Below are positions 2,641 through 59,340 of a DNA stretch of 64,000 bases, piece by piece (position 1 is the first letter of the stretch; every line of letters starts with the position of its first letter). The stretch comes from Dugong dugon (Eukaryota; Chordata; Mammalia; Sirenia; Dugongidae). A model generated the notes under the pieces. The model was given only the letters and a program-made list of their open reading frames with translations, was not told where the DNA came from and ran no database searches. The stretch spans positions 52,510,145-52,574,144 of the forward strand of contig CM057468.1 of assembly GCA_030035585.1 (NCBI GenBank), read 5' to 3'. Position numbers and translations under genes: made by a program.

Positions 2641-2700
2641 AATGAATTAGCAAGCTATTGGTCACCACATGGTGGGAATTAGGGTTATAGAGTGCCCCAT

Positions 2701-3200
2701 TGTTACCGCGATAACATGGATTGGAGCCGCCTGCTGCAATAGCCAATTCTGAGACAGGGGTGAGGTGAGCAGCAAGATGTTTATTATATATCGATATAGA
2801 GGAGACAGAGGGGAATAGATTCCTCCAAAAAACCCATTTCCTCCACTGGAGATCGGCTGAAGTCTTTTATGGGGCAGGATTATGGATCTTTTGTGGTAGT
2901 TTCCCCTTGAGGTGATGATGTCTTAGATGAGTTAACCTTCTACTAGTCTTCTTAGAGGTTATCGGGTGACATCTTTGGGGATTATCTGGCGACATTCTGC
3001 TTTTTTTGTCGCAAGATGGGTGCTTTGTTTGGTTTTTCATTCTTAGATCATTATCACTTGTTTTCCACCCTCCAGGGAGGAAATCAGTTAATCTTAAACC
3101 TTTTTGTAGAGACTAGAATGGGAGGGAAAAATCATGAGACAATGTGGCGGTTAGCAATGGGGAGTAAATAATAGTGAGCCAGGCCTATGCAGCCTCTCCA
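2701..3200 (-). repeat. ERV-A 3' LTR
   Basis: 500-bp LTR, TGGAGAGG...GGTAACA on the minus strand. A TATA-like CATAAAAGAC (about 2861-2871) and a polyadenylation signal AATAAA (2780-2785, minus) are visible. The paired LTR at 10000-10470 has AATAAG at the same place. Relative to its partner it carries an extra tract near 2957-3005 that looks like a short internal duplication (ttatcgggtgacat / ttatctggcgacat). Confidence 0.9.
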
Positions 3201-3311: not shown

Positions 3312-3725
3312 CTAGGGGCTATAGGCGGGGAGGGTGAGGGGTGAGTTAGAGCTGAAATCAGCTGCATCCCAGTGAATTAGATGATGTGTATCCCCAGAGC
3401 CTGGAAGAGGGGTGTCTCGAGTTACCAGGGTAAAAATTTCTCTCACCTTAAGGGTTTTTGTAGTTCTTCCTGTCAATATTTTCATAAAACAGGGAACACA
3501 AAAACATACTAGAATAACCACTATTCTTAAGGTTCCTCTTTCAGGCTCTTTTATGGCCCACTTAACTGGACCTACTGGAGTTCGGGTTGAGACTACACAC
3601 AGAAGGGTCAGAGTGTCCCCAGCTTGCAGGGTCAATGTCCCCTTTGCCTGTAGGATCACCGGCACATTTTCTGTCTAGGTCTCCTGGAAAATCAGAAAGA
3701 TAGAGGGAAACAAGGTCAAAATCAT
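3312..3725 (-). pseudogene. Ig V-set (SIRP-like) ORF in the env position of ERV-A
   Basis: Seen: an ATG at 3725-3723 overlaps the pol stop TGA (3724-3722) by four bases. About 14 mostly hydrophobic codons follow, resembling a signal peptide, then an in-frame TAG at 3677-3675, then an open frame to a stop just left of 3312. After the TAG the frame encodes AGDTLTLLC, then 12 residues, then the Trp of PVGPVKW. The Cys-to-Trp spacing and the PVGP turn match the first half of SIRP V domains. The second V-set Cys (YxC motif) is not found. A hydrophobic segment with LVCFCVPCF follows and resembles the env membrane anchor of ERV-B (LLCLILPCL), then a basic tail. Known: SIRP proteins are Ig receptors, SIRP-alpha binding CD47. 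Inferred: a membrane-anchored or secreted decoy made in place of env. Alternatives: a chance match, or Ig-like residues from another family. The SIRP resemblance of the B-C strand region seems solid; function is unknown. Confidence 0.6.
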
Positions 3726-4720
3726 TGTGCTGTAGGCTTCTTGAACTTGTATTTCAGGCCCTGAATTGGAGTACAAGAGTACGGTGGCTCTTCGTTTTCT
3801 GCTTCTTTCTCTTCTTCTGGTGGGGCTGCTTTTACTCCGGAGTGATGCACCCACTCAGCTGCTCTTGTTAATTTCAGAGAGAGGGTGGTCAGGAGAATTT
3901 TAAAAGGTCCCTCTCACTGAGGGGCCAGTTGCTCTTCTGGGGGTTGATTCCTCCAGGCCTTCAACAGGACCCGATCTCTGATCTCTGGGTTGGAACCTGT
4001 GGAGGGGAGTGTCAGAAGGAACAACAAACGAGAAGAAGCATACTGATTAACGGTGTTTATGACAGCTCTCAGAGAATGGACCCAGTCTCTTTTCTCTACC
4101 TCGGTCATCACTGAGGTGGGGAAAGTTGACTTTTTCAGGAATGGTCTCTCATGTATTAATTTGTAACGGCTCAATCTGAGCCCACTTTAAGGGGCTACCT
4201 GGATTCTGAGCAGGGCAATGGGGAGAACTTGTATCTAAGTGGAGCTCGTCTCCGGGCAAAGTTTCACCAAGGACTTTTTCAGAGTTCATCTTTTTGGTCT
4301 CTCCAGTTGATTGTGGTCTCTAAGCTGAGTGTACTTTCCAATTTATATCTAAAACCTTGTTGACTTCTTGGGTGACTGTTGTCATAAAAGCTCCCCTGTT
4401 GTCACTCTGTACTGAGACTGGAAGATCAAAACAGGGTATGATTTCTTTGAGTAATACCTTGGTCACTTCTTGGGCTCATTCAGTTCGACAAAAGAAAGCC
4501 GCTACCCACCCTGAGTAGGTGTCCACAAAAATCAGCAGATATTTAAAATTTCCAGGTGTCTGGAGCATTATACCACTGCCACCTAAAGGGGATCATTGAT
4601 TGCCTTCAGGGCTCTAGGATTTCTGGTACATGTTTTATTTCTTTGCTGGCAGATTCAGAAGTCCCCTTTTTCCTACAAGGCACCATATGAGTGAAGGACA
4701 AGATGGGCATATTTATTATC
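3722..4720 (-). pseudogene. ERV-A integrase remnant (3' end of pol)
   Basis: Retroviral integrase joins the viral cDNA to host DNA. The catalytic core is readable: YLLIFVDTYSGWVAAF (first Asp) near 4480-4540, VQSDNRGAF (second Asp) near 4385-4415, and a RPQSTGE...NSE stretch (Glu region) near 4280-4325. The C-terminal part (RDRVLLKAWRN near 3960; EWVHHSGVK near 3845) precedes a stop TGA at 3724-3722. In-frame stops and frame changes break the gene, so no functional enzyme is expected. The four-base overlap of its stop with the next ATG retains the compact pol-env style of junction. Confidence 0.85.
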
Positions 4721-5720
4721 AGTATGTACAGTTATACGTCTTCTTATTCCTAGTCACAGGGCCCGCCTGAGGACTATGAGTTCAGCCTTTTGAGCTGAAG
4801 TGCCAGCAGGAAATGGAGCTGCCTCTAAGACCTCAGTTCGTGTCACCACCGCATATCCTGCCTTGTGGCATCCTTCATATTGAAAGCTACTGCCATCTGT
4901 ACACATTTCTATCTCTGGGTCAGTCAAGGGAACATCTGAGAGATCTGCTCTGCTAGAATAAACTTCTTCAATTATCTCTAGGCAGTCATGTACAGGGGCA
5001 TCTTCTGAAATAGGCAGCAATGTGGTTGGGATTGAGGGAGGAGACAGCCTTCAGAACCACATCTGAGTTGTCTAACAAGATTGTCTGACATTTTCTCAGC
5101 CGTCCTGCCATGAGCCAAAAAGACCCCCCTTTTATTATGTGGTATGTTTACCGTTACCTTTTGTCCAAGGGTGAATTTCTTGGCCTCCTGTAACAAGTCA
5201 TATGTTGCAGCCACCGCTGGAAGACAAGGGGGCCATCTCCAGGCTGTGTTGTCCAGCTGTTTTGAAAAGTAGGCCACTGGTCGCCTGGCTGGTCCCAGGG
5301 TTTGAGTTAGTACCCCCACAGCAATTCCCTGTCTTAATATCAGTCCTTTCACTGGCAAATAGAGGCTGAGACTCAGGGTGTAGAGGAATACAAAAGAAGG
5401 CATCTTCTACGTCTAGTACTGAAAACCAAGCACATTGTCTGGGTATAGTAACCAAGAGAATATATGGGTTTGGCACAATCGGATGAATGTCCTCTACAAT
5501 TTGGTTGATTTTTCTTAGGTCTTGAACAGACCAATATTCTCTTGTCCCTGGTTTCAACACCGGTACGAGACGGGTGTTGTACAGAAACTGGCAAAATTTT
5601 AAAAGTCCGGTTTTTATGTATCGATGCACCAATGGTGTGATCTGTTCTAAAGCTTCCTTGCAGAGGGAATATTGTCTCTGGTTTATAATAGGTGCTCTAG
5701 GTTTTAAAGTAATTTAAACC
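4721..5720 (-). pseudogene. ERV-A reverse transcriptase / RNase H remnant
   Basis: Gammaretrovirus-like RT fingers (VPVLKPGTREYWSVQDLR) and palm motif A (FSVLDVEDAFFCIPLHP) are visible between 5400 and 5632. The reading then passes, near 5330-5375, into the connection region (GVLTQTLGPARRPVAYFSKQ) and RNase H (CTDGSS, near 4900). The stretch that should carry the YxDD motif C is absent, so a deletion removed the polymerase active site. The pieces lie in different frames. The connection sequence resembles ERV-B closely (EEVYSxRxDLSDxPLT in both), which places the two in one lineage. Confidence 0.85.
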
Positions 5721-9995: not shown

Positions 9996-9999
9996 AATT

Positions 10000-10470
10000 T
10001 GTTACAGCAACAACGCGGATTGGAGCCGCCTGCCGCCAAAGCCTATTCTGAGACGGGGTGAGGTGAGCAGCAAGATGCTTATTATATGTTGATATATAGG
10101 AGACAGAGGGGAATAGATTCCTCCAAAAAACCCATCTCCCCCACTGGAGATGGCTGAAGTCTTTTATCGGGACAGGATTACGGATCTTTTGTGGTAGTTT
10201 CTCCTTGAGATGATGATGTCTTAGATGAGTTAACCTTCTACTGGTATTCTTAGAGGTTATCTGGTGACATCTTCTTGTCACAAGATGGGTGATTTGTTTG
10301 GTTTTTCATTCTTAGATCATTATCACTTGTTTTCCACCCTCCAGGGAGGAACATCGGTTAGTCTTAAACCTTTTTGTAGAGACTAGAGGGGAGGGAAAAA
10401 TCATGAGACAATGTGGCGGTTAGCAATGGGGAGTAAACAATAGTGAACTGGGCCTATGCAGCCTCTTCCA
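10000..10470 (-). repeat. ERV-A 5' LTR
   Basis: 471-bp partner of the LTR at 2701-3200, bounded by TG...CA. TATA-like and polyA regions are at the corresponding places, but the polyA hexamer has decayed to AATAAG. Confidence 0.9.
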
Positions 10471-16816: not shown

Positions 16817-17560
16817 TCATCTGGCTACTTCCTGCTGACGCCGGGCGAAGTTAGGGACTGAGTCTGTGGAATTGCCTGGCATCTTTTGTTTGTTGTTGTT
16901 TAGGATCTGGTGGGAGTAGGAGGGAAAAGATCCCTGCATCTTGAAGCCTTTTTGAAATGACAGACAAGGTAGGATCAGACATAGCAGGAAGCTAAAAATT
17001 AGAGGAGTCACCAGGGGCCAAAGCCAGCTGAAACTGGGGAAGAAGGACATAATCCAATCCCACCAAGAGGTTGTTCCTCTGGATTCTGTTACAGGCCTCA
17101 GTCTGGTCCAGTTGGCCTCTTGGTCAATTGCCTGTAAATTTAGGTTAACCTCATGAGAGGCGTTGACCCACACACAGCAGGAGGTGCAGGCTATTGCACA
17201 AACTCCTCCCTGCTTAGCTAGAATATAGTCTAGAACCAAGCAGTGGTCTAGTACTACTCTGGCCAGAGAGTTTAATGACTGCTGTTGGGCTTTTATGACT
17301 CTCCTAATGGCTCTTGATAGAAGGTGAAAGGTGTCGGAGAGGTTAAGCACAGCATCCCGTAAAGCAGCTAGTTGTGGGATAATGGTTAGGATTCTTAAAA
17401 AGGACCGTCCTATTCCTGTGTCTGTGATGGGGTTATAACGTATTCCCCTTAAATCCCAGCCTTCTTCAGTATCATTGGTGGCTCTTCTTCGTCACCTGTG
17501 TGTACTGGGATGTGGAAGTTTTATAAAGGCGATGAGGTTATCGGAGGTTGCAAGGGTCAT
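16817..17560 (-). pseudogene. ERV-B env, transmembrane subunit
   Basis: The TM subunit drives membrane fusion. Within the frame open at 16817-17350 are a heptad-like stretch (SLNSLARVVLDH), the disulfide motif CAIACTSCC (CX6CC, which bonds SU in gamma-type envelopes), a membrane anchor (LIFSFLLCLILPCL) and a short tail ending QQEVAR. The first part up to the SU junction (17350-17560) has stops, and no clear furin site or fusion peptide was found. Not functional as read. Confidence 0.88.
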
Positions 17561-18300
17561 GAGAAAGTGACAACTATCGTACAAGTGTCAGTGGATTCTT
17601 CTGGGTTTAGGCATGGGTAAGCTAGGCTTCTGTGATACTGGGTGCTAGGGGAGGTAAAATTATCATACAGAAAATAGATTCCTTGGGGCATACAAACAGA
17701 ACCACTCTTTGCCAAGCAGTTACAGAGATGGGTAGTATTGAACCATGCTGAGAAGTTGGTCAGACCAAAGGTGGAAACTTGGTGGTCTCTATTGCAACCT
17801 GGATAGACACCAAGTTCAGTCATTGATGAAAGGTGTCTCCAAGTACTGAGGTTTCCAAGGTAATATGCAAAATCTACGAACTTGGTCCTGTTAAATAAAA
17901 GAGGCAGTTCGGGGACCACTGTACTCCACCATGCCAGGTCAAGTACTTTGAAACATAGTGTGGTTCCTCACAATTCTTTTTTAACAGGGAAGACTCTTAC
18001 TTCTAAGGGGTCAGAGGTACTGCTTCCTCTTTTTGGCCCTGGCATTACAGAGATCCAGGAAGAGTTGGGGATAGGGTTTCCCCAGGGAACTTTCATATCA
18101 GCAGAGGAGGAGGGGAATGGATGGCAGATCCAACAATTACTCAGATTACCTCCCTGGGAAACAGAATTGGAAAACTGGATGAATCGGTTGTCTTCTCACT
18201 TGGCTTGGGTGCAAGTGATAGGTTGAAGCAGGTAGAGCAAAAGCAACAATGTCACAGCAAAGTTCGTATTGGTTAATTTTAGCACCATGGCAAATAGGTG
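17561..18300 (-). pseudogene. ERV-B env, surface subunit
   Basis: Starts with a signal-peptide-like segment (FAVTLLLLLYLLQPITC, near 18215-18265). A CWIC motif lies near 18130-18140, and several N-glycosylation sequons follow (NRT, NLS, NFS, NTT, NFT) in the open stretch 17557-17919. CWIC paired with CX6CC is typical of gammaretroviral SU. Frame changes separate the N-terminal and C-terminal halves. The receptor-binding specificity cannot be inferred. Confidence 0.8.
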
Positions 18301-19337
18301 GTTCCCACAGTGGGGAGAATACAAGAGAATATACGGATAAAGAGGATCAACAGAACACATGCAACAAGGACACCTAAGCATTCTACAGTCTGCAAAGGTG
18401 GAGACATGGAAGAAAAGGATGTTACTTTCTATCTATTTGAAGAGTATTTCAAGTCCTCTAGTGCCTCACACTCCCACTCTGGCTCAGGAGGTTAGTTGTC
18501 TTTGTAATCCCATGAATGGACAGCACTCTGATGACCAGTGCTGGTAGGTGAGGTCTTCAAAGGCTCATCTGGATCAATGGATGCTCGATTCACTCTGGTG
18601 TGGTGAATCCAAGGCTTTATTCCAGCTATCTTCACCAAGGAATGGGTGGCTAGTAGAACCTTGTAGGGGCTGGTCCCCTTGGGCTGGCGCTGACTGGTGG
18701 GGTGGTGGTCGTCTCACCTTTTTACAAGGAAAATGGTCTCCTGGTGCAAAAGGATGAAGAGGGATATCTGTGGGAAAAAACAGAGGACTAGAAAAACACT
18801 GGTTAATAGCCTTTAAGGCTTCACATAGTGACCTAAGATATCTGTAAACATTAAGTTCTTGGATTACCTTAGGATCATCGGAAGCACTTAGCCCCCAACC
18901 TACCTTAAGGCAAGGTCTCTCATATAACATTTCATAAGGGCTCAATTGGAACCTACTTCTAGGGACCACCTAGACTCTCAACAGGGCAATTGGCAGTAGT
19001 TTGATCCAGGGCAAGTTGGTTTCTTGGCAGAGCTTGGCCAATGTCTTTTTTAAAGTGTGATGCATCTCTTTTGTCTTTCCAGTTGACTGGGGTCTCCAGG
19101 AAAAGTGTAGTCTCCACCTAATTCCTAAATGTTCTGAAACTCGTGGGTAATTTTGGATATAAATGCTCCTCCATTATTACTCTAAATTGAATAAAGTAAA
19201 CCAAATCTAGGAATAAGTTCATTAAGAGCGTTGCTTACCTCTGATGCCTTTTCCGTCCAGCAAAGGAAAGCTTCTACCCATCTGGTAAAAGTGTCTACAA
19301 ACACTAAGAAATATTTTAACCCCTCTGTAGCTACTGG

Positions 19338-19488
19338 GGGAGCCCTGGTGGTGCAGTGGTTAAGAGCTCAGCTGCTAACCAAAAGGTCGGCAGTTCAAAT
19401 CCACCAGCTGCTCCTTGGAAACTTTATAGGGCACTTCTACTCTGTCCTATAGAATCGTTATGAATAGGAATTGACTCAATGGCAAGGG
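19338..19488 (+). mobile_element. AfroSINE, short form, in ERV-B integrase
   Basis: Starts ggagccctggtggtgcagtg. An 11-bp target duplication with one mismatch flanks it: gtagctactgg (19327-19337) and gtagctattgg (19489-19499). Confidence 0.95.
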
Positions 19489-19650
19489 GTAGCTATTGGC
19501 ATAACAGTGAAGTCTACTTGCAGTCTTCTCTGGGTTCAGTTCCACAGGCTTGTACCCCAGGCACAGAAGGTGGCTGACCTATTTTCAGATTGTTTTTTGC
19601 ACAGGTGGCACATTGTTGCACTACTTTCTGAATAGTTATTTGCATATTAA

Positions 19651-19804
19651 AACCCTTTGCCATCAAGTCGATTCTGACTCACAGCGACCCTATAGGACAG
19701 TAGAACTGCCCATACGGTTTCCAAGGAGTGCCTGGTGGATTCGAACTGCTGACCTTTTGGTTAGCAGCCATAGCTCTTAACCACTACGCCACCGGGGTTT
19801 CCTC
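19651..19804 (-). mobile_element. AfroSINE, short form, antisense, in ERV-B integrase
   Basis: Antisense copy flanked by a perfect 11-bp duplication tttgcatatta (19640-19650 and 19805-19815). Confidence 0.95.
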
Positions 19805-20110
19805 TTTGCATATTAGGCCCCTTAATCATTTTGGTCAGCCATTGGAACATAGCATCTAGGCCAAAGTGTGTACTCTTGTGAGCTGCTTTTATCACTGGGT
19901 CCATCAGGTGTCCTGGCACTAACCCTGCCTATAAGAATTATAAAGCCATCCATCTTTTGAGAACCACTGGTCATTTACCAGGAAACCCCATTCATCAGCC
20001 CTGTTTGTATCACACTTAGTGTACTGTGGGTTTGTTGGCAGTTGGAGATCAAGAATCAGGGCAAGACAAGTGGCAGGGGTTTTTGCCTTGGCAACTTGTT
20101 TGGCCGCCTG

Positions 20111-20950
20111 ATCTGCAAGGTTTCCTTTAATTATGTGAGACTCTCCTTTCTAGTGCCTGGGGCAGTGCATGACTGCCACTTCTTTTGGTAGGGTGACTGC
20201 TTCTAGGAGAGCTAAGATTTCCTTCACATGTTTTATTTCCTTTTTACCTGAAGTTAGGAGTCCTCTTTCCTTCCAAATGTCTCTGTGGGCATGAACTACT
20301 AAAAAGACATACACAGAACATGTATACATGTTGGCTTGTTGGTTGGAGTGCATTTGGAAGGCCTGGGTTGAGGCAAGAAGTTGTACCTTTTAAGCAGAGA
20401 TTCCAGGGGTCAGTGCCTTAGCTTCTTTGGTTACATGAAGGGTGACTATGGCATAGTCAGCTTTTTGACTCCTTGTTCCACAAAGCTGCTTCATTCTGTG
20501 AACAGCTCTAAATCAGGGTTAGTGAGAGGCTGGTCAGACAAGTCAGGTCTGCAGGAATACACCTCTTCAATTACTTGGTTGCAGTCATGTTTGAAGTTTT
20601 CATCCTCAGATGAGGGTAGCAGGGTTGTGGGGTTGAGGGTAGAGACAGTCTTCAGCATCACAGTGGGATTGTTGAGTAGGATAGCTTGGTACTTGCTGAA
20701 TCTCCCCACCATTAACCACAGACCATCTTTCTTTTCGATCAAGGAAAGCACACAGTGGAGGGTTAGGACCATGGTTGGTTGGCCAAGAGTGAACTTCTCG
20801 GCCTCTGTCAGGCGTTTACATGTAGCTGCAACCGCCTGAAGGCAGATGGGCCAGCCCTGGGCCACAGGGTCTAGTTGTTTGGAGAAGTATGAAGCCTGTC
20901 ATTTCCATAGCCCTAGAGTCTGAGTAAGCACAACCAGGGCAACTCCTTGT
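20111..20950 (-). pseudogene. ERV-B RT connection / RNase H remnant
   Basis: Open 20491-20865 holds the connection region (LQAVAATCKRLTEAEKFTLGQ) and the start of RNase H (LELFTE, with the acidic position changed from Asp). The RNase H end is readable near 20110-20170 (CTAPGTR, then GNLADQAAKQVAKA). Closely similar to ERV-A 4754-5300. Confidence 0.8.
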
Positions 20951-57449: not shown

Positions 57450-59340
57450 TATATGATTTTTTTTTTTTTTACCAAAACATCAGAATTGGTCCAGAGCATG
57501 TCCCATATTTACTTTAGGCCTTACTTGCCTTGAGCCACAGTGAAACTTGCATTTTAATGTTCAATCCTTACTTAAATAACCGCATGTTTGTTCATTCTTT
57601 AAAAAATAAACTTCAGGAAGGGATTGGAATGAGGAAATAGAAGGCTGACCAGAGGCTAAACAGCTTCTTCTTTCTGACACTGGCCTGGATGTACTCGTAT
57701 AGGAGACGGGTACCTGCCCTAGAGCAAAGTAAGTTTCAGGAGAAGAAGGTACTTCTTACACCAGACACAGAATATCAAATAAACAAGAGAGAGGAAGAAG
57801 GTGAATTTGAAAGGACTCCAGTGTTTTAGTCTTGGGTATCTGTTCCCCACTGACTTTTTACGAAAAGCTGCTGCTCTGCCTGTGGTCAGCTCTAACAGTG
57901 AGGTTCCATCCAAGCACTGGCTCAGACAGATACTCCTGGACCTGGTGCTGCTGCTGTTGGTGGGTACTCTTTGTGTTTGTTCCTGCATCTCTCTACCTCA
58001 CAGGTGAACACCTTTTAGGGTATCTGCCCAGCTTACAAGCCAACAAATTCCCTTTTCTAGGAATTGATCCCTCCCCTATATGGTCCCCAGGAATGGGTAC
58101 CTAGCAGTCAGGTATTGCTGACAGATCCTGGCCAAAGCTGACTGGTGCAGGGATAGACACATGACCAATCATTTTCTCTCTTGGAAATTTGGAGTTGTGA
58201 TTATGAGAGACAACAGTTCTCTATACTTCCATCTCTAATGTGTAATTTAGGAGCCATGGAGTAGCCATCTTCTTCCCATCATGAAAGTCACCAAGCAAAA
58301 GACCAGACTGCAGAGAGAGAAGGACAGTTCTGCCCTTGCTTCCAGTCCAGGTCTGTCCTCTGAACATCTGTTATGCATATCCTCTTTGCTCCTCAATGGT
58401 TACTCCATCACATCTTGGCTTGCACTGATATTACTCTTTTGTATGTGTATTGCTTTTCTCTCCAACTGTATTTACTCCAAAGGTTTTCATTTCCATGAGT
58501 TAGGATCTTACTTACATTCATCAGTCAATTCGAATCATCACCTAGAATGTTACAAGTTAGGATCTTACTTATATTCATCAGTCAATTCGAATCATCACCT
58601 AGAATGTTACAAGTGCTGTGGTTTGAGTGCATACAAAGATGGCACCGGAACAGAGAACAGAGGAGCTGTGATGCCTGGGATTTGATCACCAACCTCTCCT
58701 TGTGCCAACAGCCCCATTGTTCTCACATTCACAGGTTTTACGTTTTGCTGTGTATATGTTTATCCTCTCTGCCTTTGTTCTGTTACAGTCTTTGTATATG
58801 CCCTTGCTCTTGTACTTCCTCTGGAAGCTCTGTTGCCAGGAAACAAAGAAAGGCCAAAGCTCTTGACGTGAAACTCAGTGTTAATAAGAAAAGAGAGAAG
58901 GAAAGTTGGCAGACAGCAGGTGTGCTTTGGGGCTGCTTAAATTAACACCAGAAATGAATTTTTGACAACACCAAGATAAAGAAAATTGTGAAGGATTCAA
59001 CAATTACTAGGGTAATAAAGTTATTCTGTGCCAGAAATTTCCCAATAAAGAGAATGGAATTGGTGCTTAGTGCGTGGCTTGAACACAAAGTCAGCTTGCT
59101 TTGTGGTTTTAACTCAAGCAGAACGCTTTTGATAACTAAGGAAGAACAGTTTAAGAACACTGGAAATTGACCCATATACCTGACACCAGAAATTTTATTT
59201 CTAAATTTTTTTTAACGATTAAAACAAGTTCTATTTATATTTTTTCCTGGTGGTATAACCTTCTCACTGCCTATCATTCTGCTATATACAGTGTGTATTA
59301 AATAAATACTACATGTATGCATTAATGAATACCTAAATAG
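57450..59340. other. Unassigned sequence
   Basis: No gene recognised. Short ORFs with hydrophobic stretches (57801-58007) have no start context or homology I can name. A 57-bp tandem duplication lies at 58499-58612. Confidence 0.3.
58499..58612. repeat. 57-bp tandem duplication
   Basis: Two adjacent units beginning gttaggatcttactta, differing at one base (ttacattca / ttatattca). Confidence 0.95.

Follow-up and report, generated by a model that had tools for sequence, protein, structure and literature searches.

A SIRP-like V domain fused to the envelope protein of an endogenous retrovirus family in the dugong genome

How did a piece resembling a mammalian immune receptor come to lie where an endogenous retrovirus (ERV) is expected to carry its envelope gene (env)? 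The question is raised by a 64,000-nucleotide stretch of the Dugong dugon genome (GenBank assembly GCA_030035585.1, contig CM057468.1, positions 52,510,145 to 52,574,144, forward strand), referred to below as the window, whose minus strand holds class I provirus remnants between a pair of long terminal repeats (LTRs, at about 10466-9999 and 3200-2701). An initial annotation had placed an open reading frame (ORF) between integrase and the 3' LTR and read it as a SIRP-like immunoglobulin V-set segment. The ORF is indeed found there, at 3674-3312 on the minus strand (120 amino acids; integrase piece at 3722-3913, LTR at 2701-3200), and contains AGDTLTLLC, 12 residues and PVGPVKW as described. Its signal-peptide-like start corresponds to a leader stretch with an ATG at 3725, and the reported amber codon is an in-frame TAG at 3677-3675, directly upstream of the ORF. 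The window copy is a shortened remnant of Env in which half of a SIRP-like V domain survives, composed as follows:

3675..3725, minus strand: leader-peptide stretch, with the ATG at 3725, then the TAG; T-rich tract ending TTTTCCAG/GA
3534..3674, minus strand: SIRP-like V domain, first half (to EPERG); stops at an in-frame deletion junction, 3534/3533; SIRP matches in PDB fall within residues 6-40
3312..3533, minus strand: Env membrane anchor and cytoplasmic tail, with stop codon; hydrophobic stretch LRIVVILVCFCVPCFMKIL; 71% identical to residues 522-591 of a full-length Env

Taken on its own, the half domain gives only a borderline hint of SIRP identity. It reached the Pfam V-set family at a borderline E of 0.12 (residues 11-45) and SIRP V domains in PDB at 0.0067-0.069, and two longer SIRP chains followed at 0.19 and 0.21; these matches were interspersed with antibody fragments, the best of which (0.0025) stood ahead of SIRP. 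The Cys-Trp-Cys pattern of the V fold is incomplete, the second half of the domain being absent. A protein-database search with the 120-residue ORF produced 9 candidates and no match, and among the viral contigs searched one stretch fitted a pattern and no relative was found. The SIRP identity of the ORF derives from its full-length relatives, which match SIRP at 2e-20 against 7e-8 for the best other immunoglobulin. The proposed protein search against SIRP and immunoglobulin families was therefore clear for the full domain of the relatives, while the window half stayed borderline. The view that the ORF is not env-like does not hold, since residues 48-120 are Env anchor and tail; the V half is 54.8% identical to residues 1-73 of the full-length protein, leader included.

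That full-length form was found at G000:C24 (locus L049, which extends L041), where one natural open frame of 591 codons runs through a hydrophobic leader, a complete V domain, a gamma-type surface subunit (SU), a transmembrane subunit (TM), an anchor and the same tail as in the window-type copies. Its landmarks are Cys48, Cys115, IKYKKGSP, CWVC at 174, RKRR at 362, CAIINKTCC (CX6CC) at 462 and an anchor near 520, and the single frame scores both as TLV_coat (8.2e-17) and as V-set (9e-9). The marks of a gamma-type Env are all present, namely a CXXC in SU, a furin site, an immunosuppressive domain with CX6CC and a membrane anchor. Such proteins usually run from leader to SU without a host domain; this one, which we call V-Env, departs from that layout by a complete V domain between leader and CXXC.

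A genome search with the V domain as query (best 150 of 373 candidates scored) provided 30 loci, 28 of them distinct (L057 and L058 duplicate L056). SU follows within 70 nt after V in 28/30 loci, with a gap of 0-3 nt in 24 and of -7, 29, 56 and 70 nt in the others, and TM is present in 26/30; the exceptions are L061 and L066, which consist of V only, and L074 and L078, which lack TM. The V-Env fusion is the ground plan of a retrovirus family in the Dugong dugon genome. Host-derived coding sequence thus recurs at several loci of an LTR-flanked element, the LTR evidence coming from the pair at the window copy alone. The idea of a SIRP piece in the env position stands in that the piece is ERV-borne, but it forms a part of Env in front of SU and not a stand-alone gene replacing env.

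We then consider where the V domain came from. In PDB, the V domain of L049 matched SIRP-beta1 at 1.9e-20, SIRP-beta1, gamma and alpha entries followed down to 2.8e-17, and the best other immunoglobulin chain stood at 7.4e-8 (best 60 of 2164 rows). The V-fold residues are present in most proviral copies (Cys1 in 28/30, Trp in 30/31, Cys2 in 27/30). The host SIRP cluster occupies C2:34.40-35.22 Mb and includes, at 35.215 Mb, one V exon with two C1-set exons. A reciprocal genome search with this host V exon returned 96 matches at E <=0.001 (best 150 of 291 candidates scored), all of which, compared by eye, fall in this cluster or at proviral-type V copies; the best proviral match reached 1.6e-19 and 47%. 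In a tree of 24 rows, which drew on 12 of the 31 proviral V copies (those free of stops and at least about 96 codons long), 4 of 5 copies from a tandem array described below and 5 hand-picked host V exons among others, 16 proviral V domains formed one group with 100/100 support on a stem of 1.11 changes per column. The reciprocal matches and this single group on a long stem are best fitted by one old acquisition, in which the V of the proviral Env would descend from a host SIRP V captured once, long ago. A whole SIRP has a V and two C1-set domains; in V-Env it is SU that comes after V, which indicates a captured domain and not a SIRP gene. The suspected host-gene capture is therefore borne out by a complete SIRP-family V fused in frame to Env in the relatives, with which the reciprocal search concurs.

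Two features of the cluster itself may be recorded here. Three more V exons of host SIRP, which share 94-95% identity with the query exon, lie at C2:34750452-35215552, indicating a recently expanded cluster. In addition, a V-Env provirus copy sits at G000:C2:34454241-34455880, inside the very gene family from which its V domain stems.

Selection was assessed with w, a pairwise NG86 ratio computed for the reading frame and for both shifted frames on the best frame piece per locus (V in 31, SU in 29 and TM in 25 of 31 loci; SU taken as residues 150-395, extending beyond the furin site at 362). The duplicates L057 and L058 were dropped here, as in the tree and the residue counts. For V, w was 0.318 in frame versus 0.878 and 0.956 shifted; for SU, 0.245 versus 0.986 and 1.209; and for TM, 0.329 versus 0.831 and 0.875. 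An alternative count that pooled several frame pieces per locus gave median w of 0.48 (V), 0.49 (SU), 0.46 (TM) and 0.68 (anchor and tail). Like SU and TM, V was under purifying selection, at a constraint similar to that on TM. As V was the query that found these loci, the sample is biased toward V; SU and TM played no part in that search.

Was V added to an Env that lacked it? The window contains a second class I provirus, spanning 16961-20898 on the minus strand, with an integrase at 19140-18582 and an in-frame stop right after the Env leader. Its Env survives in pieces:

16961..18346, minus strand: second, V-less provirus Env, with leader, in-frame stop, about 20 residues, CWIC at 18135, furin-like RRR and TM; TLV_coat 4.6e-10

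The two Envs are 41.8% identical in TM and 29.5% at the start of SU (E 3e-5), the integrases are 39-48% identical, and neither for the CWIC piece nor for TM did any of 500 shuffles align as well to V-Env. A V domain sought in this second Env at E up to 1 gave no match. With its CWIC about 20 residues behind the leader, the V-less Env makes V look like an N-terminal addition, inserted, as far as the alignments suggest, between leader and CXXC. According to the part of a review available to us (PMC9967133), the CXXC of Syncytin-2 precedes the receptor-binding domain, and new folds are to be expected where SU begins. As to the route, an acceptor-like CAG/GA after a T-rich tract is separated from the first SIRP-homologous codon by 27 nt in the provirus and by 26 nt in the host gene (manual count), and a donor-like GTGAGT occurs in two copies (L050, L051) of the 21 for which the V end was read. 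When the flanks of provirus and host gene were aligned, the left flank did no better than shuffles (691/2000 as good), and 24/2000 were as good on the right, which includes exon sequence. The Env leader peptide may be the translated end of a SIRP intron, captured from unspliced sequence.

The window copy belongs to a shortened branch of this family. Searching its own 3.16-Gb genome with the ORF (best 150 of 509 candidates scored), we sampled 48 loci (L001-L048), chosen partly for long open frames. Deletion copies account for 45/48, the window copy among them, and in the remaining three (L041-L043) Env precedes the same tail. An EPERG/TLRIV-type junction is common to 45/45 deletion copies; it joins residue 69 of the parent frame to residue 522, with 452 codons gone and the frame kept. 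The second V-set Cys, correctly noted as missing, was accordingly lost through this in-frame deletion and not by point mutation. By score, L064 and L071 are nearest to the window copy (152/192 nt; 36 loci compared).

Overall, we are confident in an account in which a SIRP V exon was captured, fused and selected, and a later 452-codon deletion was copied. A class I retrovirus with a gamma-type Env would have taken up a single V-set exon from a SIRP gene, fused in frame between the Env leader and the N-terminal CXXC of SU, and the chimeric Env would have been kept by selection during virus spread; one provirus would then have suffered an in-frame loss of 452 codons, reaching from the middle of V to the membrane anchor, and many copies, the one in the window included, would have been made of the resulting defective form. 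The descent of V, its fusion to Env, the selection in frame and the shared deletion junction are the established parts. Several observations weigh against the account. The addition of V rests on one V-less relative with an integrase 39-48% identical, the middle SU piece is not alignable between the two Envs (69/500 shuffles as good), and CXXC and furin site lie 188 residues apart in V-Env, as against about 215 in its V-less counterpart; part of SU's own binding region may have been lost at capture. The tree fails to single out a source SIRP (support 72/66), and the identity between V and the five host SIRP V exons used for comparison is 32-41% (up to 47% in the genome search). All loci were picked by protein similarity, a choice that favours kept frames, so that stop counts and w values lean in that direction. 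The DE-loop region of the proviral V differs from host SIRP, and SIRP-beta, in the accessible part of one source, lacks high-affinity CD47 binding despite close homology (PMC12975943), which means that V similarity does not show binding.

Alternative origins and fates of the V segment fare poorly. An ordinary gammaretroviral receptor-binding domain that resembles an immunoglobulin V by convergence would suit the borderline half domain, with an antibody fragment on top of its matches, but this reading is refuted by the SIRP-specific PDB scores of the full domain and by the reciprocal genome search, whose matches fall in the SIRP cluster or at proviral-type V copies, and the window's second Env has no V match either; we give it practically no credence. 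It is also very improbable that the window-type short ORF (half V, anchor and tail) is a still-selected small membrane protein. The deletion keeps the frame, stops are few (10 per 5095 codons, in a sample biased by its selection for protein similarity and, in part, for frame length), and the V half alone has a w of 0.543 in frame versus 0.690 and 0.879 shifted. However, the whole ORF gives 0.685 versus 0.560 and 0.819, anchor and tail give 0.728 versus 0.502 and 0.715, and the window copy has its TAG after the leader. Protein-level selection on the window-type ORF is not clearly evident, with a weak trace at most in the V half.

What the complete V domain did is a separate matter. BC and FG loops of the SIRP V are among its contacts with CD47, and the corresponding regions (SSLTPVGPVKW-like and VKYKKGSP-like) stay near host SIRP in most copies by eye. 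V on the virion would be an extra docking domain, most likely for CD47 on target cells, with the SU/TM machinery performing fusion; we put CD47 docking somewhat below an even chance. A passenger or shield whose SIRP-ligand binding is gone appears rather doubtful: the low identity to host SIRP V exons, the long stem and the changed DE-loop residues speak for it, but V is selected about as strongly as TM (w 0.32 versus 0.33) and the BC- and FG-loop regions remain SIRP-like. We consider it unlikely that V served immune modulation, ligating or masking CD47 or another SIRP ligand and so altering phagocyte or T-cell responses. CD47 is bound by the V domain of SIRP, forms of SIRP with D1 only regulate the interaction according to the portion seen of PMC12975943, and V was kept under selection; yet a position in front of SU suits attachment at least equally, and in a different setting, as far as the excerpt of PMC8211255 goes, CD47 blocking on virions left infection unchanged and MLV was insensitive to SIRPA. 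With the same reserve as for CD47 docking, we suggest that a retrovirus may have worn a single host immune-receptor exon on its Env and made the 'don't-eat-me' signal CD47 its docking site. A host immune-receptor domain built into Env would show how a single step can alter receptor use and would link a viral lineage with the CD47-SIRP axis, and the host genome retains its SIRP genes, leaving source, timing and selection traceable.

A tandem array of V copies lies at G000:C3:190868559-191894229 and on C147 (loci L080, L082-L084 and L090-L097), with a period of about 61.5 kb from the coordinates. The copies hold proviral SIRP-like V frames, mostly open, adjoining decayed Env (3/3 examined). Exaptation as a host gene family was set aside, with Cys2 in 4/11, the leader ATG gone in 11/11 listed, Env decayed and w at 0.573 in frame versus 1.314 and 0.661 shifted. 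The array is probably a segmental duplication carrying passengers, although some host use may exist.

The remaining parts of the window provirus are the following:

2701..3200, minus strand: 3' LTR; ends approximate, by eye; direct-repeat pieces within 2700-3197 pair with 9999-10466
9999..10466, minus strand: 5' LTR; ends approximate; direct repeats with the 3' LTR
4754..5713, minus strand: reverse transcriptase (5713-5198) and RNase H (5406-4754) remnants; RVT_1 1.3e-4, RT_RNaseH 5e-7, RNase_H 1.6e-4
3722..4453, minus strand: integrase remnant, interrupted; 54.5% to the L049 integrase frame over 3833-4453; C-terminal piece 3722-3913 matches MLVIN_C at E 0.006, below Pfam's cut-off

The LTRs differ by a Kimura two-parameter distance (K2P) of 0.073 over 464 sites (24 transitions, 8 transversions), or 0.052 over 438 sites with CpG masked. 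If mammalian DNA is assumed to change at about 2.2e-9 per site per year, this divergence corresponds to roughly 17 million years. A tract near 9995-9978, after the 5' LTR, resembles a tRNA-Ile primer site by its appearance. Rfam and tRNA scans of the whole window gave no match. Elsewhere, at 58498-58614, the window has 2.1 copies of a 57-bp unit with 98% matches.

Host-gene pick-up by retroviruses is already known, and the novelty here is a host immune-receptor domain within Env itself; among the titles and abstract starts listed by literature searches we found no report of a SIRP domain in a retroviral Env, and an earlier record may exist. The cellular SIRPA, SIRPB1 and SIRPG share with the proviral V a V-set domain with Cys-Trp-Cys and SIRP-like BC and FG loop regions, but carry two C1-set domains after V (host exons, and the part consulted of PMC12975943) where the provirus has SU and TM. 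Syncytin-2, the HERV-FRD Env (PDB 7oix), is likewise gamma-type with a CXXC near the SU N-terminus; its CXXC sits at 43-46, which leaves no immunoglobulin domain in front (both from the available section of PMC9967133). V-Env matches Syncytin-2 in sequence from residue 327 onward (9.4e-16), and its SU before residue 327 had no sequence match in PDB. The nearest precedent, going by the text at hand of PMC4299795, is the capture of nectin3 (CrocERV31) and KIT-ligand (CrocERV29) by crocodilian ERVs. There too, host coding sequence, that of an immunoglobulin-superfamily protein included, was taken up at or beside env, and the frames are open and show signs of purifying selection. In the crocodilian elements a whole mRNA became a gene of its own, either at env's expense or placed between pol and env, whereas V-Env carries a single V domain fused in frame onto Env.
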